Positions 11,320-54,677 of a DNA stretch of 64,000 nucleotides are shown here, one piece after another. A program made the position numbers and the translations under genes. The notes under the pieces were generated by a model. It made no database searches. It had not been told where the DNA came from and saw only the letters and a list, made by a program, of their open reading frames with translations. This DNA is from Phycisphaeraceae bacterium (lineage in GTDB: Bacteria > Planctomycetota > Phycisphaerae > Phycisphaerales > Phycisphaeraceae), in assembly GCA_028277745.1 (NCBI GenBank), contig JANQFR010000076.1, forward strand, positions 1-64,000. Reading direction: 5' to 3'. The stretch's first letter is position 1; every line of letters begins with the position of its first letter.

Positions 11320-11350
11320 GGCCCGGCGAAAGGACTCGCCGGGCCTTTTT
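11320..11350 (+). terminator. Intrinsic terminator after xerC
   Basis: GGCCCGGCGA (11320-11329) and TCGCCGGGCC (11336-11345) form a perfect 10-bp stem with a 6-base loop, followed by TTTTT. It is a textbook rho-independent terminator closing the operon that ends with xerC. Confidence 0.9.
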
Positions 11351-30520: not shown

Positions 30521-30535
30521 CCCGTTGGCAGCGTT

Positions 30536-30615
30536 AAGCCGGACCTGAGCGCAGCGAAGGTCCGGATGGCTTGGGCCGGTCGTATCCGGACCTTCGCTGC
30601 GCTCAGGTCCGGCTT
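30536..30615. repeat. Dispersed long hairpin, family B copy 1
   Basis: 80 bases: two 32-base arms in perfect inverted repeat (starting AAGCCGGACCTGAGCG, ending GCTCAGGTCCGGCTT) around a 16-base loop. At the variable stem position this copy has GCGCAGCG paired with CGCTGCGC. It fills the convergent gap between copA and purK. Related copies are at 47259 and 53784. Confidence 0.95.
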
Positions 30616-30623
30616 CAAGGGGG

Positions 30624-35233: not shown

Positions 35234-35506
35234 GTGCCGAATCGCCACGCTTCGACATCTGATTCTGGAAGTTGGCTTGAGCTGATCCGGGCAGCGCGGC
35301 AGCGCGACCCCGAGCAGACGTTGGGGCAAGCGCTGGTCCGCCTGGCGCAACTCGCCGAAGCGGCCCATCAATATCAGCACACCCATCACCTGCTGCCTCT
35401 GCACCCCGATATCCCGGACCATCGGTTAAAGGCCCACGGACGGGTCTTAGGGCGCGTAGACGCCGCGCTTCGGCGCGGGTCGGACCGAAAGGAGTCGGAC
35501 CGATGA
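35234..35506 (+). CDS. Small protein coupled to flgF
   Basis: A 90-residue basic protein. GTG 35234 has GAGGA seven bases upstream; an ATG at 35195 is in frame but lies before the predicted transcription start. The centre is helical (LELIRAARQRDPEQTLGQAL, then LAQLAEAAHQYQ), with an H-rich stretch and an Arg-rich tail. The stop overlaps the flgF ATG (ATGA), which implies coupled translation. As first gene of the rod/ring operon it may be a flagellar accessory or chaperone. No family was recognised. Confidence 0.55.
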   Translation: MPNRHASTSDSGSWLELIRAARQRDPEQTLGQALVRLAQLAEAAHQYQHTHHLLPLHPDIPDHRLKAHGRVLGRVDAALRRGSDRKESDR

Positions 35507-37183: not shown

Positions 37184-38338
37184 ATGATGGCGATCAGGCG
37201 TAAACAGAATAAGAAACCGTCAGGCCCGGCTTGGGTGATCGCTTTGATCGTCGCTGTATCGTTGGCTTCTCATGTGTTGGCGAACACCGTTCGGCTGCAC
37301 GAGCAGGCGGGGTCGTCGGGGCCCACCGTCACGCTGGAAGAGGTCGCCGACCTTGACGGCGACGACGCTTCCCGGTTCGGCGGCGTCATCGTCGGGGCGT
37401 TTGGCGAAAACGCACCCACGCTCCAGGTCTCGATGGAAACGGTCAGGGAAGCGTTGACGCGCCAGGGCGCCAACTGGGGCACCCTCTCTCTGGTCGGCTT
37501 CAACCGCTGCCAGGTGACGCGCCTCCAGGAGCCGGCGGTGGTGGATGCCGACCGTCCCGAGGTGGATCACGCGACGGTCGCTGTGAATCTCGAGCATGAG
37601 ATCGACCTGAAAACCCCCTTGACGCTGCGCGATCACCTGCGGGAGACCATCGCCAGCCGGTGCGGGGCGGACCCGGCCGACCTGCGGATCACTTTTCGCG
37701 AAGCGGACGGCGCCCGGCTGGACATGTCGTTGATGCGGAACCGCTTTGAGGTTGGGTTCGCCACCAAAAATGTGTTGGGACGGATCCCCATCAGGATCCA
37801 TACGCTCAGCCGCGGCCGCACCGACGGGTCCTTTATGATCACCGCCCGGGTCGAGCGGCGTGTCCTGGGGGTGGTCGCCACCCGGGTGATCCCCTCGCGG
37901 AGGCCGTTCCCTTCTGACGCCGTTGAAGTGCGTGAACTCTGGCTGGATACGGAAGACGGCCCGCCGCTCACGGACCTTTCCATGGTGGTGGGGCAGATGG
38001 CCGCGGTGGCGATCCGCCCCGGGATGGCGATCTCGGCGCACATGATCCGTCCGCCGCTGCTGGTCCGCCGCGGGGACCCGGTCACGGTCCGTGTCGTGAT
38101 CGGCGACCTGTCGGTCCGGTCGGTCGCCAAGGCCGTCGAAGACGGTGCGCTGGACGACGTAATCACGCTCCGGCGCCAGGGCGGGCGCGACACGTTCACG
38201 GCGACGGTGACCGGCTTGCGCGAAGCGACGATCCTGATGGACCCCATCGCCCCGCGCCCCGCGGCGCCCGCGTCGGCGCGGCGGTCGCCTGACGGCCTTT
38301 CACGGACCATCGCCACATTCAGGGAGCAGTCAAAATGA
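37184..38338 (+). CDS. flgA: P-ring assembly chaperone FlgA
   Basis: A 384-residue periplasmic protein needed for FlgI ring formation. An N-terminal signal helix (WVIALIVAVSLASHVLA) is followed by an extended N-terminal region and the C-terminal SAF domain (RPFPSDAVEVRELWLDTE; VRRGDPVTVRVVIGDLSV). The SAF domain carries the FlgA function. The protein is longer than E. coli FlgA (219 residues); the extra sequence is in the N-terminal half. The start is ATG 37184 or 37187. The stop overlaps flgH (ATGA). Confidence 0.88.
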   Translation: MMAIRRKQNKKPSGPAWVIALIVAVSLASHVLANTVRLHEQAGSSGPTVTLEEVADLDGDDASRFGGVIVGAFGENAPTLQVSMETVREALTRQGANWGTLSLVGFNRCQVTRLQEPAVVDADRPEVDHATVAVNLEHEIDLKTPLTLRDHLRETIASRCGADPADLRITFREADGARLDMSLMRNRFEVGFATKNVLGRIPIRIHTLSRGRTDGSFMITARVERRVLGVVATRVIPSRRPFPSDAVEVRELWLDTEDGPPLTDLSMVVGQMAAVAIRPGMAISAHMIRPPLLVRRGDPVTVRVVIGDLSVRSVAKAVEDGALDDVITLRRQGGRDTFTATVTGLREATILMDPIAPRPAAPASARRSPDGLSRTIATFREQSK

Positions 38339-39036
38339 TCCGCGGTTCTGTCGTCTTTCTGTTGTTCATCACCGGCGCGACGGCGTACGCTCAATCGGCC
38401 TCGTTGTATTTCGAGCAGGTCGACGTGCCGGGCTATGTCGGCAACATCTATGTCCCGCCGTCTCCCCAGAAGACGATCTCCCCGGCCATCGCCGCGACGT
38501 CGCTGATGGCGGTGCCGATGCCGGAGCCGCGCCAATTCGCGGTCGGCGACCTGATCACCATCATCATCCGTGAAACGACTCAGGCCGACTGGTCGGGCAA
38601 GCTCGACACCTCCAAGGAGGTTGATTTCAACGGGTCGGTGGATCAGTTCCCGCGTTTCTCGTTCGCCGACTTCGCGTTGCGCAACGGCATCGGGACGCCG
38701 ATCCAGCTGGATATGGGCTACGAACACGAGTTTGAAGGCGAGGGTGAGCTGCGCCGCCATGAAACCATCACCGGCCGCATGACCGCGCGGATCATCGATG
38801 TTAAACCCAACGGAACCCTCGCGATCGAGGCGACCAAATACAACCAGGTCGACAAAGAGACCCTCCGCCTCACCCTCACGGGCGTCTGCCGGTCTGACGA
38901 TGTCTCGATCGAGAACACCATTCTTTCCAGCCAGATTTACGACCTGCACCTGGTGAAGGAACACACCGGCGAGCTCCGCAAGGCCACACGCAAGGGCATC
39001 CTCACCCAGCTTTTCGAGCTGCTGTTCAACTTTTAA
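38335..39036 (+). CDS. flgH: Flagellar L-ring protein FlgH, without lipobox
   Basis: A 233-residue outer-membrane ring protein. The family core is clear: FAVGDLITIIIRETTQAD, GEGELRRHETITGRMTARI, PNGTLAIEATKYNQVD, LTGVCRSDDVSIENTILSSQI. The N-terminus (GSVVFLLFITGATAYAQ) is a signal peptidase I-type signal with no Cys, whereas most FlgH proteins are lipoproteins. The overlap with flgA and the 17-base gap to flgI indicate one operon. Its presence implies a true outer membrane. Confidence 0.94.
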   Translation: MIRGSVVFLLFITGATAYAQSASLYFEQVDVPGYVGNIYVPPSPQKTISPAIAATSLMAVPMPEPRQFAVGDLITIIIRETTQADWSGKLDTSKEVDFNGSVDQFPRFSFADFALRNGIGTPIQLDMGYEHEFEGEGELRRHETITGRMTARIIDVKPNGTLAIEATKYNQVDKETLRLTLTGVCRSDDVSIENTILSSQIYDLHLVKEHTGELRKATRKGILTQLFELLFNF

Positions 39037-39053
39037 GACATGGTTGATTTGAG

Positions 39054-40118
39054 ATGATGAAAGCTATCCTCCTGACGCTGATGATTCTGCTGGCGGCTGC
39101 TCCGGCGCACGCGGTCCAGATCCGCGATATCGTCCGGCTCAAGGGGTCGGAGCACAACAAACTCATCGGCCAGGGCGTCGTGGTCGGGCTCAACGGCACC
39201 GGCGACGGTGCCCACCCGCCCACGCTCGAGATGCTGGCGCAGTTCATCGGCCATTACGGGGTCCCGAACGTGAACGCCGGGATGCTCAGCAACAACAAGA
39301 ACGTGGCGCTGGTGTACCTGTCGGCGCAGATCCCCGACGAGGGTATCGCGGAGGGCGACCGGATCGACGTGAAGGTGTCGGCGGCGGGCCCGGCGACCAG
39401 CCTGGCGGGCGGCACCCTGATCATGATCCCAATGACCGGGCCGCTGCGCGACAGCCCGGTGCTGGCCTACGCCGAGGGCCGGATCAATATCCCGGACCCC
39501 AAGGCGCCCAACGACGGGATCATCACCATGGGCGCCCAGCTGATTCAGGACATTTCCACGTCGGCGATGGACCCGTACTTCCGGCTCCGCCTGGTGATCG
39601 ACGAGGCCTACGCCGGCTGGCCGACCGCCAACGCGATCGCGGGCCAGATCAACGGCGTCATGTCTCCCGACGGGCCAGACATCGCCAAGGTGGCGGACGG
39701 GAAAAACGTCCTGGTCAACGTGCCGGTCTATCAGCGCGACAACCCCGCGCAGTTCATCAACGACATCCTCGTGACCTACATCGACATGGCGTTCGTTTCC
39801 GGCGGGGCCAAGGTCGTCGTGAATGAGCGCAGCGGCACGATCGTGATCACGGGTGAGGTGGAGGTCTCGCCGGTGCTGATCAGCCACGCGGGCCTGACGG
39901 TGACGACGCTGACGCCCGAACCGATCGGCACGCCGTTCGAACCGATCGAGACCCAGACCCATTTCGTCGCGATGGACCCGCAGGACCGGGGCGGCGCCAG
40001 GCTGGCGGACCTCCTCGCCGCGTTCAATCAGCTGAAGGTCAGCGCCAAAGACCGGATCCAGATCCTGCGGATGATGCACCAGGCCGGCCAGCTTCACGCG
40101 GAGTTTATTGTCGAATGA
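39054..40118 (+). CDS. flgI: Flagellar P-ring protein FlgI
   Basis: A 354-residue periplasmic ring protein. The signal peptide LLTLMILLAAAPAHA precedes VQIRDIVRLKGSEHNKLIGQ and GVVVGLNGTGDG, the FlgI signature. VAAVMVTA-like and DRIDVKVSAAGPATSLAGGT stretches follow, with LITPL-type ends. Full length for the family. The stop overlaps the next gene (ATGA at 40115-40118). Confidence 0.97.
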   Translation: MMKAILLTLMILLAAAPAHAVQIRDIVRLKGSEHNKLIGQGVVVGLNGTGDGAHPPTLEMLAQFIGHYGVPNVNAGMLSNNKNVALVYLSAQIPDEGIAEGDRIDVKVSAAGPATSLAGGTLIMIPMTGPLRDSPVLAYAEGRINIPDPKAPNDGIITMGAQLIQDISTSAMDPYFRLRLVIDEAYAGWPTANAIAGQINGVMSPDGPDIAKVADGKNVLVNVPVYQRDNPAQFINDILVTYIDMAFVSGGAKVVVNERSGTIVITGEVEVSPVLISHAGLTVTTLTPEPIGTPFEPIETQTHFVAMDPQDRGGARLADLLAAFNQLKVSAKDRIQILRMMHQAGQLHAEFIVE

Positions 40119-40471
40119 CCCCCGTCCACGCATTGACAGACCGGACCGCGGCGGCCGCGGCGCAGCCCCACCGGAAGGACGCCGCCGCCGACTTCGAGCG
40201 GGCGCTGACGGCCGCCTCGTCGGGCGACCAGGTGCGCGACGCCGCCCGCGGGCTGGTTTCCTCCGCGTTCCTGCTGCCCATGCTCGCGCAGGTGCGGGCG
40301 TCGGCCAAAGAAGGCGATCTGCTCCACGGCGGCTTCGGCGAAGACGTTTGGCGGCAGCAGCTGGACACGATGATCGCGGACCGCATCCTGCAGAAATCAA
40401 ACTTCTCGGTCGTCGAGGCGGTTTACCGGAACATCGTCCCGAAACAGGCGGAGGCGGACGTCTATGGCTAG
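40115..40471 (+). CDS. flgJ: Rod-binding protein (FlgJ N-terminal type)
   Basis: A 118-residue protein corresponding to the rod-binding domain of FlgJ: ARGLVSSAFLLPMLAQVRAS, then GEDVWRQQLDTMIADRIL. The muramidase domain of gamma-proteobacterial FlgJ is absent, so peptidoglycan must be opened by a separate enzyme. It overlaps flgI at its start and flgN at its end by 8 bases, indicating tight coupling. Confidence 0.85.
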   Translation: MTPVHALTDRTAAAAAQPHRKDAAADFERALTAASSGDQVRDAARGLVSSAFLLPMLAQVRASAKEGDLLHGGFGEDVWRQQLDTMIADRILQKSNFSVVEAVYRNIVPKQAEADVYG

Positions 40472-40979
40472 AAACATCCAACCCACGCTTACCGCTCTCG
40501 AGACGGTGATCCAGCAGCAACTTCAGATTCATGATTTTCTTCTGGAGACGGCGCCCAAAAAGCAGGATGCGTTGCGGTCGGGCGACGCCCCGAAGCTCGC
40601 GGAGCTTTGCCGCCTCGAGAACGAGAAGGTTCAGGCGTTGAGCGAGCTTGAAAAGAAACGCCTGGAGGTCGCGGCCCGGCTGACGCTGCTGGTGAAGCCC
40701 GGCGCCGCTGAGCCGATGCGGCTCAAGGACATCGCCGAGCACCTGGCCGAGCCAGCGCGGCGTAAGCTCCTGCTCCTGCGAGATGAGTTGACCCAACGGG
40801 TTCAGCAGGTCAAGCAGCAGACCGCGGTCGCGCGGCGGGCGACCGACGCGCTGATGAAGCACATGCAGGGCGTGGTCCAGACCATCGGCGCGATGGCGAC
40901 CGGCGTTTCCACTTATTCGGATGACGGCATGCGGCCGACGGCGGCCACGGCGGTCAGCACCTTCAGTATGACGGCGTAA
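40464..40979 (+). CDS. flgN: FlgN-like export chaperone
   Basis: A 171-residue, almost wholly helical protein positioned just before flgK. The pattern (TALETVIQQQLQIHDFLLET, then KKQDALRSGDAPKLAELCRLE NEKV) fits FlgN, the chaperone for the hook-junction proteins FlgK and FlgL. Its stop is 3 bases before the flgK start. The family is divergent, so position carries much of the weight. Confidence 0.8.
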   Translation: MARNIQPTLTALETVIQQQLQIHDFLLETAPKKQDALRSGDAPKLAELCRLENEKVQALSELEKKRLEVAARLTLLVKPGAAEPMRLKDIAEHLAEPARRKLLLLRDELTQRVQQVKQQTAVARRATDALMKHMQGVVQTIGAMATGVSTYSDDGMRPTAATAVSTFSMTA

Positions 40980-40982
40980 CCC

Positions 40983-42695
40983 ATGACACTCGGCGCTTCT
41001 CTCCAGATCGGACGGACCGGCTTGCTCGCGTCGCAGGCCGCGCTGGAAGTGGCGGGCAACAACCTCGCCAACGTCGCGACCCGCGGCTATCACCGCCAGA
41101 CGATCTCGCTGGCGCCGAACCCGTACCAGGAGATTCAACAAGGCGTTTTCGCAGGCCGGGGGGTGCAGATCTCCTCCATCACCCGACAGATCGACGAGGC
41201 GCTCGAGGCCCGGCTCCGCGGGGCGGTCTCCGACGGCGGGCGGTCCGCGGCGATGGTGAACCTGCTGTCGCAGGTCGAGTCGCTTCAGAATGAATTCACC
41301 GAGGCCGACCTGTCGACCCGCCTCGGCACCTTCTTCAACGCCTGGTCTCAGCTTGCCAACAATCCTCAGGACCAGTCACTGCGAACGCTGGTCGTGCAGG
41401 AGGCGGCGACGCTCTCCACCTTTATCCGCGACCTCGACCAGGACCTGGGCGAACTCCAGCTCCAGACCGACCGCACCACCGGGCAGGTGGTTGAAACGGT
41501 CAACGACCTCCTGTCGCGCATCGAGCAGGTGAACCAGAGCATCGCCCTGGCTGAGGGCGGCAACCCGGGCGGGGCGGGGGGGCTGCGCGACCAGCGCGAC
41601 CAGTTGTTGAGCGAGCTATCGCAGTACCTGGACATCTCCACGGTGGAAAGCCCCAACGGCGTGGTCGACGTGTTTGTCGGGTCGATCCCGATCGTCCTGA
41701 ACGGGCGGAGCCGGGGCGTCGAACTGCGTGAGCGAACCATCGACGGCCAGGTCCAGACGGACGTGGTGGTCGCGGCGGATCAGTCCCCGCTCGATATCTC
41801 CTCGGGCGAGTTGGGGGCGTTGGTCCAGTTCCGCCAGAATGACCTGCAGGACGCCATCGACACCCTCGACACCCTGGCCAGCCAGTTGATCTATCAGGTC
41901 AACCGCATCCATTCGCAGAGTCAGGGGCTGAGCGGCTACACGAGTCTGACCAGCCAGAGCCGGGTGATCGACGCCTCGGCCGCGCTGAACGACCTCGACG
42001 CCACCGGGCTTGACTTCGCGGCCGGCCACGGCTCCTTCCAGCTCCACCTGACCCAGAAGTCGACCGGCCAGCAAACCACCACCACCATCAACATCGATCT
42101 CGACGGCATCAACCCGGCCGGTGACACGACGCTGACGAGCCTCGCCGCGGAGATCAACGCGGTGAGCGGCGTCAGCGCCGTGGTGACCGCGGACGGCCGC
42201 CTACAGATCGACTCGGCCAGCGCTGATTTCGAGGTGACCTTCAGCGACGACAGCTCGGGTGTCCTGGCGGCGCTGGGGATCAACACCTTTTTCACGGGCG
42301 GCGACGCGTTCGATATCGACGTGAACGCCGCGTTGCTGACGTCGCCGGATCACCTCGCCGCCGCTCGGGGACATCTGCCGGGCGATAACAGCGGGGCGCT
42401 GGCGATCGCCGACCTGCGCGACCAGTCGCTTGGTGAGCTGAATGGGCAAAGCCTGACGCGGTATTGGAACCGCCATGTCGAGGATTTCGCGATCCGCCTG
42501 GCGCAGGCCCAGGAACAGGAGCGGGCGGATGCGGTGGTGCGCGAGTCGTTGGAGGCTCAACAGCAGTCGGTGTCGGGCGTGAACATGGATGAAGAAACGA
42601 TCGATCTGATCCGCTACCAGAGCTCTTACCAGGCGAGCGCGCGGTTTCTGAGCGTGGTTGACGAGTTATACAGAACGTTGTTGGGGCTGATTTAA
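40983..42695 (+). CDS. flgK: Hook-associated protein 1 FlgK
   Basis: A 570-residue hook-filament junction protein. The N-terminal LAVAGNN-type LEVAGNNLANVATRGYHRQ is diagnostic, followed by GVFAGRGVQISSITRQIDE. The C-terminal end SGVNMDEETIDLIRYQSSYQ, then ASARFLSVVDELYRTLLGLI matches the family. The middle carries a flagellin-IN-like segment (TTLTSLAAEINAVSGVSAVV). Translated directly after flgN. Confidence 0.96.
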   Translation: MTLGASLQIGRTGLLASQAALEVAGNNLANVATRGYHRQTISLAPNPYQEIQQGVFAGRGVQISSITRQIDEALEARLRGAVSDGGRSAAMVNLLSQVESLQNEFTEADLSTRLGTFFNAWSQLANNPQDQSLRTLVVQEAATLSTFIRDLDQDLGELQLQTDRTTGQVVETVNDLLSRIEQVNQSIALAEGGNPGGAGGLRDQRDQLLSELSQYLDISTVESPNGVVDVFVGSIPIVLNGRSRGVELRERTIDGQVQTDVVVAADQSPLDISSGELGALVQFRQNDLQDAIDTLDTLASQLIYQVNRIHSQSQGLSGYTSLTSQSRVIDASAALNDLDATGLDFAAGHGSFQLHLTQKSTGQQTTTTINIDLDGINPAGDTTLTSLAAEINAVSGVSAVVTADGRLQIDSASADFEVTFSDDSSGVLAALGINTFFTGGDAFDIDVNAALLTSPDHLAAARGHLPGDNSGALAIADLRDQSLGELNGQSLTRYWNRHVEDFAIRLAQAQEQERADAVVRESLEAQQQSVSGVNMDEETIDLIRYQSSYQASARFLSVVDELYRTLLGLI

Positions 42696-42720
42696 GACGT
42701 AACGGAAGGCTGACTGAATC

Positions 42721-44676
42721 ATGGCCGGTGTTGGCTCGATCTCATCACGAACCACTTCGCTTCAGATCAATGACAGCCTGTTGCGTTCCCTGCAGCGTAC
42801 GCAGCAACAGCTGTTCAGGGCTCAGAACGAGATCAACACGCTCAAGTCGGTGAACAAGCCCAGCGAGGGGCCGGACAAGACGTCCTCGATCCTGTTTCTG
42901 GAGCAGAACATCCAGGAGCGGGTGCAGATCAACGAGAATCTGCAGTTCGCGCTGTCGATGCTCAATAACGCCGACGCGGCGCTGGGGGACGTGACGGATG
43001 TGTTGATCGAGGCTCAGTCGCTGGCCTCCGGCCAGGTGGGCGTCGGCTCGGACGACGAGACCCGCAAGGCGACCGCCGAGGTGGTCGACGCTCAGTTGAC
43101 GGCCATCATCGAGATCGCGAACCGGCAGTTCAACGACCTGTCGATCTTCGGCGGCAACAACGGCGCCGGTCGCAACGGCGAGGTGTTCGTCGAGTTCCTG
43201 GGAGGGATCCGGTATCTCGGGTCGGACACGAGCCTGACGGGCGACATCGGCGACGGGCGCACCCAGACCATCAACAGCAACGGCCTGGCGGCGTTCGGCG
43301 CCCTCTCGTCACGCGTCAGGTCCCAGGTCGATCTTGATCCGACGCTGGTTCCGACGACGAAACTGTCGGACGTCAATGGGGCTCAGCAACTGGGCGTGCG
43401 CAGCGGATCGGTGCAGCTGGTGGTGGACGGGGCCGCGACGGTCGTGGATCTGACCTCGGCCGAGACGGTTGACGACGTCGTCACGCGGATCAACGCGGCG
43501 ATCAACGTCATCGACCCAACCGCCGGCGCCGTCACGCTCAACGACCACCACTTCGACCTGACCGCCAACGCCGGACACACCATCACCATCGCCGACATCG
43601 GCGAGTCCCAGACCGCCGCGGACCTGGGGATCACCGGGACCGCCGCTTCCGTGACCCTCGCCGGGGGGGACCTCAACGCCCGCATCACCCAGCAGACCAG
43701 CCTCGGCTCGCTCGACGCCATGATCGACTTCGTCAACGGCCTGATGATCACGCAGGGGACCGAAACCCGGACCGTGGCGGTCAATGCGACCGATACGGTG
43801 CAGGACCTTCAGAACCGGATCGAATCCCTGGGCATCGGCGTCCGGCTGGAGATCAACGACGCGGGCGACAGCTTCAACCTGATCAGCGAGGTCAGCGGCC
43901 TGAGCATGAGCATCGGTGAAAACGGCGGAACGACCGCCGCCGACCTGGGCCTGCTGACGCTGGGAAGCGACACCCGGCTCGACAGCTTCCGCAACGGCCT
44001 GGGTGTCGAGCCCCAGGAAGGCGTCGACGATTTCCGCATCAGCCTGCACGACGGCACGACGATCGATATCGACGCGACGGGCCTGACCACGGTCGGTGAC
44101 CTGATGGCGCGGATCCAGGCCGAGGCCGACGCGGTCACCGCGATGCCGGGCGATCTGACCGTCAGCCTGGCCACGGTCGGGACGGGCATCGTGTTGACGG
44201 ACAACACCGCGGGCGGGGGTGAGTTCAAGGTCGAGAATCTGGGATTGAGCCTCGTCGCCGATCAGTTGGGGCTGACCGCCAACGCCGGGGCCGGCGCCGC
44301 CGGCGCCTCCCTCACCAGCGAGGACAAGGCCCAGGTCCGGGTCGACAGCGTCTTCACCCATTTGAAAGATTTAAGCGAGGCTTTGCGGAATAACGACACG
44401 CTTGGCATCACCCTTGCTGGAGAAAGGGTGGAGAACGACGTGGAAAGCGTCACCTCCGCCCGGGCGACCGTCGGCATCGAAGCCGCCCGCGTCGTGCAGA
44501 CCCAGCAACGCATGGATGACATCGACATCATGGAAAAAAGCATGCTCAGCCAGCTTCAGGACGCGGACCTCACCGAGGTGATTACGCGGTACGCCCAGTT
44601 GCAGCAGCAGTTGGAGGCGTCGCTGCAGTCGGGCTCCCTCCTGAACCAGTTGAGCTTACTGGACTTTTTGCGCTAG
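42721..44676 (+). CDS. flgL: Hook-associated protein 3 FlgL
   Basis: A 651-residue flagellin-like junction protein, about twice E. coli FlgL (317). The flagellin-type N-terminus (SLQRTQQQLFRAQNEINTLK, then SVNKPSEGPDKTSSILFLEQ) and C-terminus (RATVGIEAARVVQTQQRMDD, ending ASLQSGSLLNQLSLLDFLR) are both present. The extra length is in the middle, where a unit recurs at least three times: VDDVVTRINAAI, VQDLQNRIESLG, VGDLMARIQAEA, each with a following ADLGL or ADQLGL turn. These look like flagellin-IN motifs. It ends the hook-junction part of the operon. Confidence 0.92.
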   Translation: MAGVGSISSRTTSLQINDSLLRSLQRTQQQLFRAQNEINTLKSVNKPSEGPDKTSSILFLEQNIQERVQINENLQFALSMLNNADAALGDVTDVLIEAQSLASGQVGVGSDDETRKATAEVVDAQLTAIIEIANRQFNDLSIFGGNNGAGRNGEVFVEFLGGIRYLGSDTSLTGDIGDGRTQTINSNGLAAFGALSSRVRSQVDLDPTLVPTTKLSDVNGAQQLGVRSGSVQLVVDGAATVVDLTSAETVDDVVTRINAAINVIDPTAGAVTLNDHHFDLTANAGHTITIADIGESQTAADLGITGTAASVTLAGGDLNARITQQTSLGSLDAMIDFVNGLMITQGTETRTVAVNATDTVQDLQNRIESLGIGVRLEINDAGDSFNLISEVSGLSMSIGENGGTTAADLGLLTLGSDTRLDSFRNGLGVEPQEGVDDFRISLHDGTTIDIDATGLTTVGDLMARIQAEADAVTAMPGDLTVSLATVGTGIVLTDNTAGGGEFKVENLGLSLVADQLGLTANAGAGAAGASLTSEDKAQVRVDSVFTHLKDLSEALRNNDTLGITLAGERVENDVESVTSARATVGIEAARVVQTQQRMDDIDIMEKSMLSQLQDADLTEVITRYAQLQQQLEASLQSGSLLNQLSLLDFLR

Positions 44677-44816
44677 GAAGCGCAACGCTTGCGCGGCCGG
44701 CCGAACGTCAAGGCCAATCGACCGGACGCGACCTCAAAGACGGCAGGAAGCCGTCGACCCGAAGGACCGGGTTGGATAACTCAGGATGATCGGCCTTGGA
44801 TTGAGGATGCGTGATC

Positions 44817-45266
44817 ATGTTGATCCAGACCTCTCGATTCGGTGAAGTGGACGTGGATGAGACCCGGATCATCACGTTCGCCAAAGGGCTTCTGGGATTC
44901 CCCAAGTACCGGCGGTACGTGCTCATCGAGGCCGGCCAGGACAGTTATTTCTGGTGGCTCCAGTCGATCGAACTGCCCGAGTTGGCGTTCGTGGTGACCG
45001 ACCCGAGCCTGTTCGTGCCGACCTACCGCGTGCCGCTCAAGGTCGAGCAGATGCGGGAGATGGGGATCGAGAACCTCGACGAGGCGCAGGTGTTCGTGAT
45101 CGTGAACAAGCGCGAGAACGTCTTGACCGGCAACCTGCAGGGCCCGCTGGTCGTCCACGTGGGCAAGCGGGTCGGCGAGCAGCTGGTGCTCAGCGACCGA
45201 CGGTTCACCACGCGGGTGCCGCTGATCGAGCTGGGCGCCCCGATGAAGCAGGCGGCCAGCGCGTGA
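44817..45266 (+). CDS. fliW: Flagellar assembly factor FliW
   Basis: A 149-residue beta-barrel protein. The start [20 protein letters not shown] is the FliW signature, with [18 protein letters not shown] following. In other bacteria FliW binds either flagellin or CsrA, so that CsrA is freed to block flagellin translation until export proceeds. ATG 44817 lies nine bases past GAGGA; GTG 44811 is in frame. It is followed by csrA and fliC in the classical order. Confidence 0.95.
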
Positions 45267-45366
45267 GCGCGGCGAAGCCGCGCCTCACTGGAATTGCGTT
45301 AGACGGGACGGCGCACGGAAGCGCCGAAGAAGACGACGAACGGCCCAAGGAAGGAGCCACCCAAGC

Positions 45367-45627
45367 ATGCTCGTGCTATCCCGGCAACGCGACGAGACGA
45401 TCATGATCGGCGACGAGGTGGAGATCACCGTCGTCGACATCCGCGGGGATAAGGTCAGGCTGGGCATCAACGCCCCTCGACAGGTCCAGGTGCACCGCAA
45501 GGAAGTGTATGAGGCGATCAAACGTGAGAACGCCGAGGCCAGTCAAACCCCAGTCCGTATGGATGATCTGAACGTCGCAGACCAAAACCTGAGAGCCCGC
45601 GCCAACGGCCGGCCTCAGACAAGATAG
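45367..45627 (+). CDS. csrA: Carbon storage regulator CsrA
   Basis: An 86-residue RNA-binding regulator. The sequence [20 protein letters not shown] and [19 protein letters not shown], then [14 protein letters not shown], is the complete CsrA dimer core. A non-conserved tail of about 25 residues follows. CsrA binds GGA in hairpin loops. Two such hairpins sit in the fliC leader directly downstream, and a CAAGGA also lies in its own leader (45346-45351). The AAGGAG nearest the ATG is 12 bases away. Confidence 0.97.
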
Positions 45628-45654
45628 ATCGGAACCGCCAACGAACTTTTTCAC

Positions 45655-45713
45655 CAGCAAGGAACGCTGAACCGAGGCCCAGGCCTCGAACACGACAATC
45701 AAGGAGGATTGTC
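45655..45713 (+). promoter_or_regulatory. fliC leader: two CsrA-type hairpins, second encloses the Shine-Dalgarno
   Basis: Three small hairpins lie in the 88-base csrA-fliC gap. Hairpin 1 is CAGC-AAGGAAC-GCTG (45655-45669). Hairpin 2 is CGAGGC-CCAG-GCCTCG (45673-45688). Hairpin 3 is GACAATC-AAGGAG-GATTGTC (45694-45713), whose loop is the fliC ribosome-binding site. Hairpins 1 and 3 both read CAAGGA at the top of the stem into the loop, matching the CsrA core (ACARGGA). CsrA bound to hairpin 3 would block the ribosome, three bases ahead of the ATG at 45716. Confidence 0.8.
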
Positions 45714-45715
45714 AA

Positions 45716-47179
45716 ATGAGCCGGATCAACACCAACGTTTCGTCACTGATCGCCCAGAACAACCTCGCCCGGTCGAACGCCGACCTGGCGACCAGCCTGC
45801 AACGCCTCAGCACCGGCCTGCGGATCAACCGCGGCGCCGATGACCCGGCCGGACTGATCGTGTCCGAGCGGTTGCGGACCGAGATCCAGGGCGTCGGGCA
45901 GGCGATCGACAACATCGAGCGGGCGTCCAACGTCATCGCCACCGCCGAGGGCGCCCTCAACGAGATCAACACCCTGCTGGTCGACATGAAGTCGCTGCTC
46001 GTTGAGGCCGCCAACACCGGCGCCTTCTCCAAGGACGAGGTCGCGGCCAATCAACTGCAGATCGACTCGGCGATCGACTCGATCACCCGCATCGCCAACA
46101 CCACCAGCTTCGCGGGCCTCAAGCTGCTCAACGGTTCGCTGGACTACATCCATTCCGGCCTCGCCGCGTCGCAGATCGCCGACCTGAAGCTGCTGGGCGT
46201 TAACTTCGGCACCAACGACTCCGTCCCCGTCAGCGTCGAGGTGCTCAACTCCGCCGAGACCGCCTCGCTGACCATCTCCGCCGCCAACGCCACCGGCTCG
46301 GCCATCCTTTCCAGCGTCACCTTTGAGGTCGCCGGCGCCACGGGCTCCGAGGTCTTCGAGTTCACCTCCGGCACCGCCACCTCCGCCATCGTGTTCGCTG
46401 TCAACACCGTCAAGGACGCCACCGGCGTCTCCGCCACGCTCGTCAACAACTCCGCCGTCCAGCTCAACTCGACCACCTTCGGCTCCGACGCCTTCGTCAG
46501 TGTGCGTCAGCTCACCAACGACACCCAGAACTTCTTCACCGTTGACGCCCCCGACGGCGCCCAGATCAACCGGGATCAGGGCGAAGACGTGCTGGCCCTC
46601 GTCAACGGCTCGCTCGCCCTCGGCGACGGGCTCGACGTTAGCCTGCGAACCAGCACCCTCAACCTCGAGCTCACCCTGACCACGGACGCCGCCCAGACCA
46701 TCAACACCCCCTACACCTTTGATATCACCGGCGGCGGCGCCACCTTCCAGATCGGCCCCAACGTCAACACCCAGCAGCAGATCGGGTTCGGCATCCAGTC
46801 CGTCGCCGCCGCCAACCTCGGCAACTCGATCGTCGGCTTCCTCAGCTCGCTCAGCACCGGCGGCTCCGCGTCACTGGTCACCGGCGACACCGCCGACCAG
46901 TCGCGGATCGCGTCGGCCATCGTCGACGAATCCATCGACCAGATCTCGATCCTCCGCGGCCGGCTGGGCGCCTTCGAACGCAACACCCTCCAGACCACCC
47001 TCAACAGCCACCAGATCGGGCTGGAAAACCTCACCGCCGCGCAATCCGATATCCGCGACACCGACTTCGCGGAAGAAACCGCCAACCTGACCCGGGCCCA
47101 GATCCTTCAACAGGCCGGCACCTCCACCCTGGCCATCGCCAACACCACCGCTCAGAGCGTGTTGTCCCTCCTCGGATAA
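45716..47179 (+). CDS. fliC: Flagellin
   Basis: A 487-residue filament protein. The N-terminus (RINTNVSSLIAQNNLARSNA, then LATSLQRLSTGLRINRGADD) and C-terminus (ILRGRLGAFERNTLQTTLNS, then AEETANLTRAQILQQAGTST and SVLSLLG) are the conserved D0/D1 coiled coils. The middle (about residues 160-380) is variable and T/S/A-rich. The leader carries CsrA-type hairpins, and a UUCG-tetraloop terminator follows. It is last of the fliW-csrA-fliC block. No second flagellin gene is in the window. Confidence 0.97.
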   Translation: MSRINTNVSSLIAQNNLARSNADLATSLQRLSTGLRINRGADDPAGLIVSERLRTEIQGVGQAIDNIERASNVIATAEGALNEINTLLVDMKSLLVEAANTGAFSKDEVAANQLQIDSAIDSITRIANTTSFAGLKLLNGSLDYIHSGLAASQIADLKLLGVNFGTNDSVPVSVEVLNSAETASLTISAANATGSAILSSVTFEVAGATGSEVFEFTSGTATSAIVFAVNTVKDATGVSATLVNNSAVQLNSTTFGSDAFVSVRQLTNDTQNFFTVDAPDGAQINRDQGEDVLALVNGSLALGDGLDVSLRTSTLNLELTLTTDAAQTINTPYTFDITGGGATFQIGPNVNTQQQIGFGIQSVAAANLGNSIVGFLSSLSTGGSASLVTGDTADQSRIASAIVDESIDQISILRGRLGAFERNTLQTTLNSHQIGLENLTAAQSDIRDTDFAEETANLTRAQILQQAGTSTLAIANTTAQSVLSLLG

Positions 47180-47207
47180 CACCTAACCCAACCCGCTCGC
47201 TCGTCCC

Positions 47208-47243
47208 AACGGCTCGCACGCTTCGGCGTCGCGAGCCGTTTTA
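47208..47243 (+). terminator. Intrinsic terminator of fliC with TTCG tetraloop
   Basis: AACGGCTCGCACGC (47208-47221), loop TTCG, GCGTCGCGAGCCGTT (47226-47240, one bulged base), then TTTT ending at 47242. This is a very stable terminator, as expected after a highly expressed gene. A family B hairpin follows 16 bases later. Confidence 0.88.
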
Positions 47244-47258
47244 CTTGAGATGTAATTT

Positions 47259-47338
47259 AAGCCGGACCTGAGCGTAGCGAAGGTCCGGATCGCGTTGGCG
47301 AAAACCATCCGGACCTTCGCTACGCTCAGGTCCGGCTT
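47259..47338. repeat. Dispersed long hairpin, family B copy 2
   Basis: 80 bases with two perfect 32-base arms and a 16-base loop ending GGCGAAAACC. At the variable stem position this copy has GCGTAGCG paired with CGCTACGC. It is in the convergent gap between fliC and accA. Confidence 0.95.
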
Positions 47339-47410
47339 CTCACGCACGTTCAGAATGTCTTCAATTGAGCGTTGTTGGAAAGTACAGAATGGCTAAGCGG
47401 TCAGGCGGCC

Positions 47411-48421
47411 TTAAGCATCCGTGATTTCGCCGATCATGCGCAGCCGGGCGTAGCGCTTGTTGAGCAGGTTGTCGATCTTGAAGCGTTTGAGTTCGCGCAG
47501 GGTCTGGATGATGTACTTTTCGACGAGGTGAGCGGCCTCGGCGGGGCGGCGGTGGGCGCCGCCGAGGGGCTCGGGGATGATGTCGTCGGCGACGCCGAGC
47601 TTAAGGTTATCGTTCGCGGTGAGCTTGAGGGCCTCGGCGGCGGCGCTGTTGGTTTCGGGGTTGGCGGTCTTCCAGAGGATCGCGGCGCAGCCCTCGGGGC
47701 TGATGACGCTGTACCAGGCGTACTGCATCATCGCCAGCCGGTCGCCGACCGCGATACCCAGGGCCCCGCCGCTGCCGCCCTCGCCGATGACAATGCTGAC
47801 GATCGGCGTGCGCAGCCGGGCCATCTCCTGCAGGTTGACGGCGATGGCCTCGGCCTGGCCCCGCTCCTCGGCGCCGACGCCCGGGTACGCCCCGGGGGTG
47901 TCCACCAGCGTGACCACCGGCAGGCCGTATTTCTCGGCCAGCTTCATCGCCCGCAGCGCCTTGCGGTACCCCTCGGGGTGAGCGCAGCCGAAGCGGCAGG
48001 CGATCTTGTCCTTGGTGTCCTTGCCCTTGTGGTGGCCGATGAGCAGACACTTGTGCTGCCCGATCCGCCCGAAGCCGGTGATGATCGCCTTGTCGTCGGC
48101 GAAGCGGCGGTCGCCGTGGATCTCCATGAAGTCCTTCACGAACGCGTCGATGTAATCCACGGTCTGCGGCCGGTCGCGGTGGCGGGCGACCTTGACGACG
48201 TTGCCGGCGGACAGCTTGGCGTAGATCTTCTTGACCATCGCCGTGTGCGACTGGCGGAGCTTACGCAGGTCGGCCGAGAAGTCGACATTGGGGTCGAGGC
48301 CGACCGCGGAGCGTTCGGGGTCGGCCTGGGCCTCGAGGTCGGCGATCTGTTTTTCCAGCGCGACCAGCGGCCGCTCAAACTCGAGTTCGTAAGCCCCCTG
48401 ATAAGTGCTCAGCTGCGACAT
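47411..48421 (-). CDS. accA: Acetyl-CoA carboxylase carboxyltransferase subunit alpha
   Basis: A 336-residue subunit that transfers the carboxyl group from biotin to acetyl-CoA in fatty acid synthesis. It has the helical N-terminus (YELEFERPLVALEKQIADLE) and the crotonase-fold core: MEIHGDRRFADDKAI, GFGRIGQHKCLLIGHHKGKD, PVVTLVDTPGAYPGVGAEER and SIVIGEGGSGGALGIAVGDR. The length fits AccA (about 320). No accD, accB or accC is nearby. It is transcribed towards fliC, with a family B hairpin in the gap. Confidence 0.97.
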   Translation of the reverse strand: MSQLSTYQGAYELEFERPLVALEKQIADLEAQADPERSAVGLDPNVDFSADLRKLRQSHTAMVKKIYAKLSAGNVVKVARHRDRPQTVDYIDAFVKDFMEIHGDRRFADDKAIITGFGRIGQHKCLLIGHHKGKDTKDKIACRFGCAHPEGYRKALRAMKLAEKYGLPVVTLVDTPGAYPGVGAEERGQAEAIAVNLQEMARLRTPIVSIVIGEGGSGGALGIAVGDRLAMMQYAWYSVISPEGCAAILWKTANPETNSAAAEALKLTANDNLKLGVADDIIPEPLGGAHRRPAEAAHLVEKYIIQTLRELKRFKIDNLLNKRYARLRMIGEITDA

Positions 48422-48469
48422 AGCGCGGGATCTCCGGCGGGCGGGTCAAACGTGATATGGTAGCGGATT

Positions 48470-48622
48470 AGGAAACGCAGGAAAGCAGGAAACACAGGAA
48501 CCGCAGGAAATGAAGAGAAACATGGTTGACACGCCTGCTGACGAGTGGATTTCACCATGCCTGTCGCCGCGACGGTCGATACGGGGCCGTATTTCTGTAT
48601 TTCCTGTTTTCCTGTTTTTCAG
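48470..48622. repeat. Imperfect inverted repeat of CAGGAAA units, family E copy 2
   Basis: The left part (48470-48520) has four CAGGAA units. The right part (48588-48622) carries TTTCTGTATTTCCTGTTTTCCTG-type reverse units. The spacer between them is unrelated to that of copy 1 (4996-5170). It lies in the divergent gap between accA and tyrA, so it must overlap or flank their promoters. Confidence 0.7.
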
Positions 48623-48631
48623 AGATTCTCC

Positions 48632-49495
48632 ATGATTAACGCCTCTCAGATCGCCATCATCGGGACGGGCCTGCTGGGGGCCAGTACGGGCCTGGCGTTG
48701 AAAGCCGCGGGCTACGCCGGCCGAGTCGTCGGGATCGGCCGACGTCTCGACACGGCCCGCCGGGCCGTCGCCGTGGGCGCCTGCGACGCCGCCGCGGTCG
48801 ACTTCGCGGTGGTCGCCGACTGCCAACTCGCGGTTATCGCGGTCCCGCTGTCGGGCTTCGACGCGGTGTTCCAGCAGCTCGCCGCTCACGACCACGACGC
48901 TTTGGTCATCACCGACGTGGGCTCGACGAAGCTCGACGTGGTGGAGAAGGCGAACCGTTACCTGCCGGCGCCGGCGCGGTTCATCGGCGCCCACCCGATG
49001 GCCGGCAGCGAGCGGACCGGGCCCGACGCGGCGACCGCCGACCTGTTTCAGCACAAGCCGTGCATCATCTGCAAGGACGAGCGAAGCGACCCTGACGCGG
49101 CTGAGCAGGTCGAAGCCCTCTGGCGCGCCGTGGGCTGCCAGCTCTTGCATATGGACCCGCTGGAGCACGACCGGGCGACCGCGGTGACCAGCCACCTGCC
49201 CCACGCGGTCGCCAGCCTGCTCGTGCTCGTGGCCGAGCAACTCGGCGGGTTTGAGGTTGCGTCGACCGGCTTCACCGGCGCGACGCGTCTGGCCAGCGGC
49301 GGGCCCGACATGCGGGCCGACCTCATGCACGCCAACGCCCCGCGCCTCGCCGACGCCTTGGCGGCGCTGAGCGGCCAGATCGACGCCATGCGTGACGCGT
49401 TGACGTCGGGCGACCACGCCCGTCTTTTGAACATGCTGAACGACGCCAAGCAGCGGCGGGACGCGTGGCTGTCCCAGCGGGAGCAAAACGCATGA
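48632..49495 (+). CDS. tyrA: Prephenate dehydrogenase
   Basis: A 287-residue NAD(P)-dependent enzyme converting prephenate to 4-hydroxyphenylpyruvate in tyrosine synthesis. The Rossmann motif is IAIIGTGLLGASTGLALKAA. TDVGSTKLDVV, FIGAHPMAGSERTG (the catalytic His) and TSHLPHAVASLL follow in the TyrA order. There is no ACT or chorismate mutase domain. ATG 48632 is chosen, because the longer frame runs through the family E repeat. The stop overlaps proC (ATGA). Confidence 0.94.
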   Translation: MINASQIAIIGTGLLGASTGLALKAAGYAGRVVGIGRRLDTARRAVAVGACDAAAVDFAVVADCQLAVIAVPLSGFDAVFQQLAAHDHDALVITDVGSTKLDVVEKANRYLPAPARFIGAHPMAGSERTGPDAATADLFQHKPCIICKDERSDPDAAEQVEALWRAVGCQLLHMDPLEHDRATAVTSHLPHAVASLLVLVAEQLGGFEVASTGFTGATRLASGGPDMRADLMHANAPRLADALAALSGQIDAMRDALTSGDHARLLNMLNDAKQRRDAWLSQREQNA

Positions 49496-50295
49496 ACCAG
49501 ACGCTCGGTTTCATCGGCGCGGGCCACATGGCCGAGGCGGTCGCACGGGCCGCGATCGAGCACGGCGTGCTGCCGGCGGATCAACTCATGGCGTATGACC
49601 CCAGCGAAGAACGCCGCGAGGTCTTTGCGGCGATGGGCGTCGTCGCGGCGGGGTCGGCGGCGGAACTGGTCGGCGCGTGCGGGCAGGTGATGCTGGCGGT
49701 CAAGCCCCAGGTCATGGCCGACGCGGTGGGCGGCGTCGCTCACGCTTTCAACGATCAGCACGTGGCGATCTCCATCATGGCGGGAGTGAGCACCGCCCGG
49801 CTCACGGGCGTGCTCGGCCGACCGACGCGCCTCGTGCGGGTCATGCCCAACACGCCCATGATGGTCGGCCGGGGCATGGCGGGCGTCGCGCTGGGCGATC
49901 ACGCCCGTCCCGGGGACGACGACCTGACCATGCGGCTCTTCTCGGCCGGCCAGAGCGTGGCGATCCGCGTCGATGAAGCCCATCTCGACGCGATCACCGC
50001 CGTGTCCGGCTCGGGGCCCGCGTACCTGTTCTACCTCGCCGAGGCGATGCAGCGGGCCGCCGATGAGCTGGGCCTGGGCGACCACGCCCGGCTGCTGGTT
50101 TCGCAGACGCTCCTCGGCGCCGCCGACCTGCTCACGCGGTCGGACCACCTAGCCGCCGAGCTGCGGCGACGCGTCACCAGCCCCGGCGGCACGACCGAGG
50201 CGGCGATCAACCATATGGAGTCCGAACACGTGCTCGACACGGTGGTCGACGCCATCCGCGCCGCCGAGGCGCGCTCCAAAGAGCTCGACGGCTAG
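49492..50295 (+). CDS. proC: Pyrroline-5-carboxylate reductase
   Basis: A 267-residue enzyme for the last step of proline synthesis. The N-terminal LGFIGAGHMAEAVARAAIEH, the central VKPQVMADAV and VRVMPNTPMMVGRGMAGVAL, and the C-terminal AVSGSGPAYLFYLAEAMQ and VTSPGGTTEAAI are all diagnostic. ATG 49492 overlaps the tyrA stop, indicating translational coupling. It is nine bases from the ubiD-like gene. Confidence 0.96.
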   Translation: MNQTLGFIGAGHMAEAVARAAIEHGVLPADQLMAYDPSEERREVFAAMGVVAAGSAAELVGACGQVMLAVKPQVMADAVGGVAHAFNDQHVAISIMAGVSTARLTGVLGRPTRLVRVMPNTPMMVGRGMAGVALGDHARPGDDDLTMRLFSAGQSVAIRVDEAHLDAITAVSGSGPAYLFYLAEAMQRAADELGLGDHARLLVSQTLLGAADLLTRSDHLAAELRRRVTSPGGTTEAAINHMESEHVLDTVVDAIRAAEARSKELDG

Positions 50296-52327: not shown

Positions 52328-53782
52328 ATGACGACGATGACAGACAACCCGGACCAGCGCCGGCTGTACGAGCAGGTGGCGGAGCGGGTGTCGGGGCTGA
52401 TCGCGTCGGGGGTGCTCGGCCCGGGGGACCGGGTGCCCTCGATCCGGCAGATGCGCGAACAGGCGTCGGTGAGCGTGTCGACCGTGCTGGAGGCGTACCG
52501 GCTGCTGGAAGACCGCGGGTTAATCCGAGCCCAGCCGCAGTCGGGGTATTTCGTGCGGGCGACGGCGGCGGACGCGCTGGCGGAGCCGGGAACCACGCCG
52601 GTGCCGGGTACGGTCAACAAAGTGGCGGTGCGGGCATTGTCGCTACGTCTGAGCCAGGAGCTCAATAACGGCAAGTCGGTCAGGCTCGGAGCGGCGTCGC
52701 CGGACATGGCGTTGCTGCCGCTGGCGGCGGTGAACCGCTGCCTGTCGCGGGTGGTGCGTGAAGACCCCGCGTCGGCGCACGCATACGCGCCGCCGCCGGG
52801 TCCGCTGCGGCTGCGCCGTCAATTGGCCAAGTGGATGCTGCGGGCCGGGTGCACCGTCGGGCCCGATGAGATCGTGGCGACCAACGGTGCGACGGAGGCG
52901 GTGTCGCTGTGCCTCCGGTCGGTGACGCGGCCGGGCGACACCGTGGCGATCGAGTCGCCGACGTATTACGGGCTGCTGGAGACGATGGAGGGGCTGGGGC
53001 TCCAGGCGATCGAGGTGACCACGTCGCCGCGGGACGGGATCGACCTCAACGCGCTCGCCGAGGCGTTCGACTCGGGCGGGGCTCGCGTGCTGGTGTTGAA
53101 CACGAGCTTCAGCAACCCCCTGGGCCATTGCGTGTCCGATTCGAAGAAGCAGCACTTGATCGGGATGCTTGAACGCTATGACGCGGTGCTGATCGAAGAC
53201 GACATCTACGGCGAGCAGGGGTTTGAGGGCGTCCGCCCCAAGGCCTACAAGGCGTTTGACCGCGGCGACCATGTGATGTACTGCAACTCGCTGTGCAAGA
53301 CGATGTCGCCGGCGCTGCGTGCGGGGTGGTGCGTGCCGGGCGCGCGGCGGCAGGGTGAGGTCGAACTGCTGAAGCTGGCGTTGTCGCACTCGTGCGCGAC
53401 GATGTGCCAGCTCGCGGCGGCGATGATGCTCGAAAGCGGCGGGTTCGACCGGTCGCTGAGGCGGCTGCGGCGGGCGTATCGGAGCAATATCGAGAAGATG
53501 ACCGACGCGGTCGCCCGGGAGTTCCCCTCCGGGACGCGGGTGACGCGGCCGCGGGGCGGGCACGTGCTCTGGGTGCAGATGCCCGAGGCGATCGACAGCC
53601 TGGCGCTGCATGACGAGGCGAGCCGCCGGGGGATCAGTATCGCGCCGGGCCACTTGTTTTCGACCACCGACCGCTACCGGCACTGTATGCGCCTGAACGC
53701 GGCCCTGCCGTGGGACGGCCGAGTCGCCGAGGCGCTGGCGACGCTGGGCCGGCTGGTCGCGAGTGACCTGGAACATGGGTGA
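52328..53782 (+). CDS. MocR-type regulator (GntR domain plus PLP aminotransferase fold)
   Basis: A 484-residue transcription factor. The N-terminal GntR winged helix (LYEQVAERVSGLIASGVLGP, then GDRVPSIRQMREQASVSVST and VLEAYRLLEDRGLI) is fused to an aminotransferase class I/II domain. That domain has VATNGATEAVSLCLRSV, a PLP-contact ESPTYYG, NPLGHC (usually NPxG) and the PLP lysine in YCNSLCKTMSPALRAGW. The group senses PLP or an amino compound. No obvious metabolic target is adjacent. An operator-like array precedes it, and a family B hairpin follows one base past the stop. Confidence 0.93.
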   Translation: MTTMTDNPDQRRLYEQVAERVSGLIASGVLGPGDRVPSIRQMREQASVSVSTVLEAYRLLEDRGLIRAQPQSGYFVRATAADALAEPGTTPVPGTVNKVAVRALSLRLSQELNNGKSVRLGAASPDMALLPLAAVNRCLSRVVREDPASAHAYAPPPGPLRLRRQLAKWMLRAGCTVGPDEIVATNGATEAVSLCLRSVTRPGDTVAIESPTYYGLLETMEGLGLQAIEVTTSPRDGIDLNALAEAFDSGGARVLVLNTSFSNPLGHCVSDSKKQHLIGMLERYDAVLIEDDIYGEQGFEGVRPKAYKAFDRGDHVMYCNSLCKTMSPALRAGWCVPGARRQGEVELLKLALSHSCATMCQLAAAMMLESGGFDRSLRRLRRAYRSNIEKMTDAVAREFPSGTRVTRPRGGHVLWVQMPEAIDSLALHDEASRRGISIAPGHLFSTTDRYRHCMRLNAALPWDGRVAEALATLGRLVASDLEHG

Positions 53783-53783
53783 G

Positions 53784-53863
53784 AAGCCGGACCTGAGCGG
53801 AGCGAAGGTCCGGATCGCATCGGCGAAAACCATCCGGACCTTCGCTCCGCTCAGGTCCGGCTT
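53784..53863. repeat. Dispersed long hairpin, family B copy 3
   Basis: 80 bases with two perfect 32-base arms and a 16-base loop (nearly that of copy 2, ending GGCGAAAACC). At the variable stem position this copy has GCGGAGCG paired with CGCTCCGC. It starts one base past the MocR stop and lies 16 bases from the converging lipoprotein gene. Confidence 0.95.
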
Positions 53864-53879
53864 GACCATTCACATTTGC

Positions 53880-54677
53880 TCAGGGATCGCAGATGGTGCG
53901 CGGCCACTCGACGTGATACTTCTTGAGCACCTGAAGGAATCGCCCGCTTTCGCAGAGCTCGACGATGCGTTGATTGAACGTGTCGCGCAGGCCCGCGTCT
54001 TTGAAGCCGGCTCCGAATTCGGTGGCCTCTGAGAAGATGGTGTGGTAGACGACGTCGCCGGTGTTGTGGCCCGCCTGCGCGGTGAAGTAGTCGAAGATGC
54101 TGCGGTCGATGACGATGACGTCGGCCTCGGCCTCCCAGAACGCCCGCACCTGATCGGCCTGGTCGGCGAACGCGGTGTAGTTTTCACGCTGCGGCCCGTT
54201 CGGGGCGTAGAGCTTCTTGAAGTCGGGGCCGAGTTCGAGGTCGGCGCCCTGCCAGGCGAGCACCTTGTGCCCGGCCAGGTCCGCGACGCGGTCGATCTCC
54301 AGGCCCGCGGACTTCCGGGTGATGGCGGCGTTATGGAAGGCGATGAATTCTTTGGAGTAAAACACCCCGTCGTCGCTGAACTTCAAGACGGCGACGGCGA
54401 CATCGGCGCGTCCTTCCGGCACCGCGGCCTGTAACGCGTGGTACGGCATCTGAATGAATTGAATGGGCTTACCCGGCAACGCCTCGCGCACGAGGTCGAC
54501 CTCGATGCCGGACGTGGCGCGGTCGATGACGTAAGGGGGGATATCCAACGAAATCGCAACCCTCAGCGGCCGCTGCGTGACCGGCTGCTGGCAGCCGGCC
54601 AAGAACAGTACGAGCGGCATCGCGGCGATGAATACCGCACGCCATACAGGAACGACGGTGTGGAAAGTGCTGATCAT
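53880..54677 (-). CDS. Solute-binding lipoprotein, family 3
   Basis: A 265-residue periplasmic binding protein. ATG 54677 with AAGGAA upstream gives a signal ending in lipobox LAGC (PLVLFLAGCQQ). The mature domain starts PLRVAISLDIPPYVI and has EVDLVREALPGK, GRADVAVAVLKFSDD and DVIVIDRSIFDYF, as in the SBP family 3 amino-acid binders. No permease or ATPase gene is adjacent, so it is an orphan receptor, or the rest is encoded elsewhere. Confidence 0.88.
   Translation of the reverse strand: MISTFHTVVPVWRAVFIAAMPLVLFLAGCQQPVTQRPLRVAISLDIPPYVIDRATSGIEVDLVREALPGKPIQFIQMPYHALQAAVPEGRADVAVAVLKFSDDGVFYSKEFIAFHNAAITRKSAGLEIDRVADLAGHKVLAWQGADLELGPDFKKLYAPNGPQRENYTAFADQADQVRAFWEAEADVIVIDRSIFDYFTAQAGHNTGDVVYHTIFSEATEFGAGFKDAGLRDTFNQRIVELCESGRFLQVLKKYHVEWPRTICDP

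Follow-up and report, generated by a model that had tools for sequence, protein, structure and literature searches.

In B. subtilis, the hag leader contains two CsrA sites, one of them on the Shine-Dalgarno (SD) sequence (PMC7652899), and the DNA analysed here raised the question whether flagellin synthesis in a Phycisphaeraceae bacterium may be gated in the same manner. The window (the whole stretch of 64,000 nucleotides that was analysed) is contig C18 of a draft genome, and its closest named flagellin relatives were found in Phycisphaeraceae MAGs. In the window, fliW, csrA and a flagellin gene (fliC) were consecutive and each was confirmed by Pfam; flgK-like and flgL-like genes and further flagellar genes preceded this row. 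The features of the locus are as follows.

44755..44774, + strand: fliW-leader hairpin CGACCCG-AAGGAC-CGGGTTG, 7-bp stem with ANGGAN hexaloop, candidate CsrA site
44811..45266, + strand: fliW (Pfam FliW 1.2e-32), longest open reading frame from GTG, in-frame ATG at 44817
45309..45326, + strand: csrA-leader hairpin CGGCGC-ACGGAA-GCGCCG between fliW and csrA, 6-bp stem with ANGGAN hexaloop, candidate site for autoregulation by CsrA
45347..45356, + strand: csrA ribosome-binding site AAGGAAGGAG with two GGA, read from the sequence; GGA doubled in most relatives
45367..45627, + strand: csrA (Pfam CsrA 1.9e-25), carrying R44 and N55
45655..45669, + strand: hairpin 1, CAGC-AAGGAAC-GCTG, GGA at 45661-45663, 4 bp and 7-nt loop, weak, not conserved
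45673..45688, + strand: spacer hairpin CGAGGC-CCAG-GCCTCG, not conserved
45694..45713, + strand: hairpin 2, GACAATC-AAGGAG-GATTGTC, loop = flagellin SD with GGA at 45703-45705, conserved site of CsrA type by sequence
45716..47179, + strand: flagellin, fliC (Pfam Flagellin_N 2.2e-34, Flagellin_C 1.9e-17), ATG at 45716

The flagellin leader in the window

The csrA stop codon and fliC were separated by 88 nt. The first-pass annotation had placed three adjacent hairpins in this gap; their sequences and coordinates were exact and RNAfold predicted all three. GGA was unpaired in both CAAGGA hairpins with a probability of 0.96-1.0, and the second GGA loop was indeed the flagellin SD, presented by the hairpin at 45694-45713. 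Folding of the whole three-hairpin stretch was mildly better than that of shuffled sequences (z = -2.08, 8/200). A single-sequence z-score of this size is weak, so one sequence alone would not prove the hairpins, and the SD hairpin was settled by comparative evidence, namely a genome-best model match and covariation. With the SD-hairpin model R1, the best match in the window's genome was this fliC leader (E 5.5e-4), the next being at 0.11. Rfam gave no relevant match for 38000-50000, even with the E threshold relaxed to 1. A sigma-70 promoter and terminator scan identified no promoter and was uninformative.

Hairpin 1 and the spacer hairpin were absent from the remaining family members that were read. 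The upstream CAAGGA hairpin and spacer, which had been proposed as a shared design, are peculiar to this genome; of the hairpins expected to be kept in close relatives, hairpin 2 is kept and hairpin 1 is not. Additional ANGGA hairpins were counted in the region between csrA and the SD hairpin. With a stem of at least 4 bp they were present in 27/104 leaders (about 26%) compared with 7.8 ± 1.9 in shuffles, and with a stem of at least 5 bp in 20 leaders compared with 3.3 ± 1.5; ANGGA in hairpin loops ranked first of 256 motifs of that shape. Since these hairpins occurred in about a quarter of the leaders and at varying positions, a second site appears to be a recurrent, fast-changing option. The idea of two CsrA sites in the leader thus stands in so far as a second ANGGA hairpin recurs, and falls as a common plan.

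The leader in the window gives nearly the same picture as the C. jejuni flaA leader, in which two ANGGA stem-loops are found, the second on the ribosome-binding site, with compensatory changes within Campylobacter (PMC4894983): here too an upstream ANGGA loop is followed by one on the ribosome-binding site. In contrast to flaA, the hairpin on the ribosome-binding site alone is common to Phycisphaerae, and the two GGA of the window are 42 nt apart instead of 21. C. jejuni belongs to a separate phylum, and the likeness of the RNAs does not imply their common descent. The locus also resembles B. subtilis hag in having FliW, CsrA and flagellin, a CsrA-type site overlapping the flagellin SD and N55, and differs from it in that Phycisphaerae do not conserve a second site in the flagellin leader.

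The Shine-Dalgarno hairpin across Phycisphaerae

Flagellin relatives, searched for with the N-terminus, were present in 227/298 genomes of the class, and 110 leaders were read; the genomes used were mostly drafts. The motif A-N-G-G-A-G was located 12-17 nt before the start codon in 108/110 Phycisphaerae flagellin leaders; since the motif filter itself demanded A.GGAG, this number counts leaders fitting the filter and is not an unbiased column count, and the fair statement is that only 2/110 failed. The loop was closed by a C-G pair in 108/108, and the second pair was T-A in 105, A-T in 2 and G-C in 1. Base 2 of the loop was free (A.42, C.24, G.18, T.17). An ANGGA hexaloop, ideally with a C-G closing pair, constant on a covarying stem, is what characterizes a CsrA site, and the loop fits the published high-affinity ANGGAN / CANGGANG CsrA loop (PMC7652899, PMC4894983). 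The loop letters that are read by CsrA, among them the A two bases before GGA, were thus kept, whereas the adjoining base, to which CsrA is indifferent, was free; pairing with 16S rRNA alone would not lead one to expect this pattern. Judged by its sequence, the element at 45694-45713 is of the published CsrA/RsmE site type and more than a plain SD, and CsrA probably binds it, as in homologous systems.

The covariation score of the stem was 0.225, compared with 0.142 ± 0.012 in shuffles and 0.051-0.092 for slid structures; covariation was also computed for the five inner pairs alone. Among 90 distinct sequences, both sides had changed yet still paired in 53 cells, compared with 29.8 ± 4.8 in shuffles. 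Because related sequences can mislead, changes were also counted by parsimony on a tree built from three proteins (FliW, CsrA, flagellin) at 103 loci. The true pairs showed 12 compensatory co-changes, whereas 500 random column pairings gave a mean of 3.4 and a maximum of 10; examples were A-T for T-A at pair 2 (L004) and T-A for A-T at pair 4 (L028). On the same tree, position 2 of the loop changed 29 times and the other five positions 0 times. The comparison of fliC leaders across Phycisphaerae that had been suggested as a check thus found hairpin 2 kept with a covarying stem. The contiguous stem was just 2-3 bp long in 26/108 leaders, about a quarter, and this counts against the CsrA-site reading. 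It is very improbable that the hairpin only reflects shared ancestry of the bases surrounding a good ribosome-binding site, its pairing unselected. Most of the host family do have the same inner bases, as this would predict, but the two-sided compensatory changes exceed those in shuffled, slid and random pairings, and the explanation is already disfavoured on that ground.

The stem might instead act without CsrA, tuning translation or sensing temperature at a strong SD. It is small and centred on the SD, and in 35/108 leaders from nine families codons 1-3 pair with bases preceding the SD hairpin in an outer helix, so that the start codon is enclosed and either bulged or paired (e.g. TAGCC with GGCTA in L016, L087 and L106). 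This count compares with 7.9 when the flank was shuffled and with 17 (maximum 24) when the partners were swapped between genomes; such an outer helix was absent from the window leader. However, the SD sits in the loop and not in the stem, the kept A and the free base next to it follow the demands of CsrA sites and not of ribosome pairing, the flagellin SDs of FliW-less genomes lack the motif, and this loop is found again before csrA and fliW, at some distance from the SD. We consider this explanation improbable, and a CsrA site on the flagellin SD remains the preferred reading.

FliW, CsrA and the genomes that carry them

Both fliW and csrA were directly upstream of flagellin in 105/110 cases, and the other five were extra flagellin copies. 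The window CsrA aligned with the Geobacillus CsrA of the FliW complex 5dmb, and the window FliW matched the solved FliW structures 5dmb and 2aj7. All 125 CsrA sequences that were compared had R44. At position 55, CsrA had N in 105/105 FliW-linked copies, while in 20 FliW-less genomes it had K in 17, N in 2 and G in 1. The B. subtilis CsrA variant N55D is deficient in FliW binding (PMC6529632). Family membership confounds the N55 contrast, although the pattern is the one expected under the FliW-CsrA model.

Flagellins of FliW-less genomes had an ordinary SD without the motif; most began with MLAIKNN and represent a different flagellin type. Because the FliW-less genomes belong to particular families with this other flagellin type, descent confounds both the motif contrast and the N55 contrast. 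The other two flagellins of the window's genome (C80 and C89) had no such hairpin or merely a weak one, and Planctomycetaceae MAG flagellin leaders found by similarity were without it. G317 and G450, which belong to other families of the phylum, carried the SD hairpin exactly on the flagellin SD, so the element is not strictly bound to the class. Two kinds of case count against the preferred reading: the csrA-linked leaders L119 and L122 lacked the motif, as did some paralogues, and G189 had the hairpin, yet csrA and fliW were not found in its draft genome.

A second CsrA paralogue of 79 aa (G000:C10:36186, L002) was located beside a NifU-like gene in the window's own genome; it has a short insertion, lacks N55 and is also counted against the preferred reading. 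Two CsrA matches were found in most f1, f2 and f4 genomes. The f8 genomes (G004, G024, G033, G067, G144 and others) had very divergent FliW matches (E 1e-6 to 1e-13) and no flagellin match, and the CsrA proteins of L173 and L175 in this group had R at position 55. Some genomes of the same order had fliW-csrA and no flagellin match, namely G066, G137, G160 and G230 (L176, L168) and G102, G155, G242 and G293 (L171, L169, L170). FlhA was also absent from G066, G137, G160 and G230; FliW and CsrA thus seem to persist in the absence of a flagellum.

Hairpins upstream of csrA and fliW

A stronger ANGGAN hairpin, upstream of csrA, and another upstream of fliW had been missed in the first-pass annotation. 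Hairpins with an ANGGAN hexaloop were present in the fliW-csrA gaps of 40/105 genomes and in the fliW leaders of 17/105 loci. To put these numbers in proportion, all hexaloop hairpins with a stem of at least 5 bp and any loop letters were counted. ANGGAN accounted for 45/167 in fliW-csrA gaps (23/37 with stems of at least 7 bp, the next commonest loop being seen 3 times), 17/133 in the 150 nt before fliW, 7/62 in csrA-fliC gaps excluding the SD hairpin, and 0/448 in three coding regions. The csrA-leader stems were unrelated between genomes, as in GCCCCGAC-ACGGAT-GTCGGGGC (L004), CGCGACAC-ACGGAC-GTGTCGCG (L007) and CGCGCGAC-ACGGAC-GTCGCGTG (L031). An ANGGAN hairpin between fliW and csrA was also detected in L170, where flagellin was not detected, and in the csrA leaders of FliW-less genomes it was found in merely 1/20.

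Over the three leaders, ANGGAN hairpins numbered 69 on the sense strand and 0 on the antisense strand, which points to an element acting at the RNA level. The hairpins are palindromic and intergenic, as DNA operators or terminators would be, but this strand specificity of the loop letters already disfavours such a role, and no terminator-like T-run follows the SD hairpin or the csrA-leader hairpin; operators or terminators are extremely improbable.

By analogy with homologous systems, including E. coli, where CsrA represses its own translation (PMC7652899), the csrA- and fliW-leader hairpins probably serve CsrA autoregulation of the operon. The candidate CsrA sites in the csrA leader recall E. 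coli csrA; unlike there, the gene here is of a FliW lineage and adjacent to flagellin. In B. subtilis the FliW:CsrA ratio is kept partly by translational coupling of fliW and csrA (PMC6529632), whereas in the loci read here the fliW-csrA gap is 69-501 nt long and often holds an ANGGAN hairpin. The two genes are gapped and not translationally coupled, and since the gap often holds such a hairpin, CsrA probably limits its own translation as well; for genes spaced in this way Bacillus-style coupling is unlikely.

The main alternative to the autoregulation arm alone is that these hairpins act chiefly as a cis sink for CsrA or as an mRNA-stability element and not in translational autorepression. 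Their positions vary, about 5-180 nt before the start codon and mostly off the SD, as a sink would allow, and the C. jejuni flaA leader titrates CsrA (PMC4894983). However, gaps contained 0-3 hairpins, mostly 0 or 1, and usually a single one instead of an array; with two GGA in the csrA SD, hairpin and SD could be bridged by a CsrA dimer. We regard the sink as a possible but rather unlikely role, and CsrB-like sponges were rejected for these gaps since no hairpin arrays were found.

Conservation of loop and stem, strand specificity, linkage to fliW-csrA and a residue 55 that tracks FliW were all computed here. In the reading that we prefer, and hold to be very probable on the strength of these sequence features and of homologous systems, CsrA bound to the ANGGAG loop of 45694-45713 would hide the flagellin SD, binding of CsrA by free FliW would relieve this repression, and capture of FliW by flagellin that has not been exported would re-establish it, a homeostasis loop as with Bacillus hag and Campylobacter flaA; CsrA would probably limit its own translation as well through the ANGGAN hairpin of the fliW-csrA gap. 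CsrA binding, repression, relief by FliW and autoregulation are here taken from homologous systems. FliW, CsrA and flagellin are adjacent, N55 is kept, and the flagellin SD carries a CsrA-type site by sequence and structure; the FliW-CsrA-flagellin checkpoint that had been read from this one leader holds across the class in its SD hairpin, its CsrA-type loop and its fliW-csrA linkage. The free loop base, the stem covariation and the FliW-tracking residue 55 are mutually independent signals of the same mechanism.

This kind of mechanism is already known from Bacillus hag and Campylobacter flaA; the novelty lies in the csrA-leader arm and in evidence at the RNA level from Planctomycetota. In the open-access literature, no study was found that deals with CsrA and the flagellin leaders of Phycisphaerae, and the checkpoint is extended by sequence evidence to a phylum for which no report was found there. 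The SD hairpin with its ANGGAG loop is a compact, testable RNA element. The csrA-leader hairpins raise the question of how the critical FliW:CsrA ratio is kept without translational coupling. It is an evenly balanced proposition that CsrA controls the entire checkpoint operon in those Planctomycetota that have FliW, and that through the ANGGAN hairpins before fliW and csrA it sets its own level and its ratio to FliW post-transcriptionally, in place of Bacillus translational coupling.

Further CsrA targets were sought genome-wide with R1; the fliC leader was the sole convincing match, and most other matches were not located just before a long open frame. With model R2, built on the csrA/fliW-leader hairpins, the window sites were not recovered at E up to 10; R2 holds too little information, and therefore no regulon is claimed. 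The genome-wide search for CsrA targets lacked power.

Other hairpins were also observed in the window. AAGGCCC-ACGGAC-GGGTCTT (35429-35448) is located about 70 nt upstream of a flgF-like gene that opens a flagellar gene run, and CGGGCA-AAGGAG-TGCTCG (1876-1893) at the start of a small membrane-protein-like open reading frame between flhG-like and fliA-like genes. At 11320-11345, after a tyrosine-recombinase-like gene, a terminator-like hairpin (10 bp, AAGGAC loop) precedes a T-run; as regards CsrA, its loop is probably due to chance. Rfam miRNA matches near 47260 were rejected as chance matches at an intergenic palindrome, such spurious matches being triggered by a palindromic intergenic repeat. 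This repeat was found at 47183-47347, 30388-30819, 52643-53869 and 53763-54032, gives the chance translations KPDLS-AKVR...IRTFA-LRSG at several places, and looks like a dispersed repeat.
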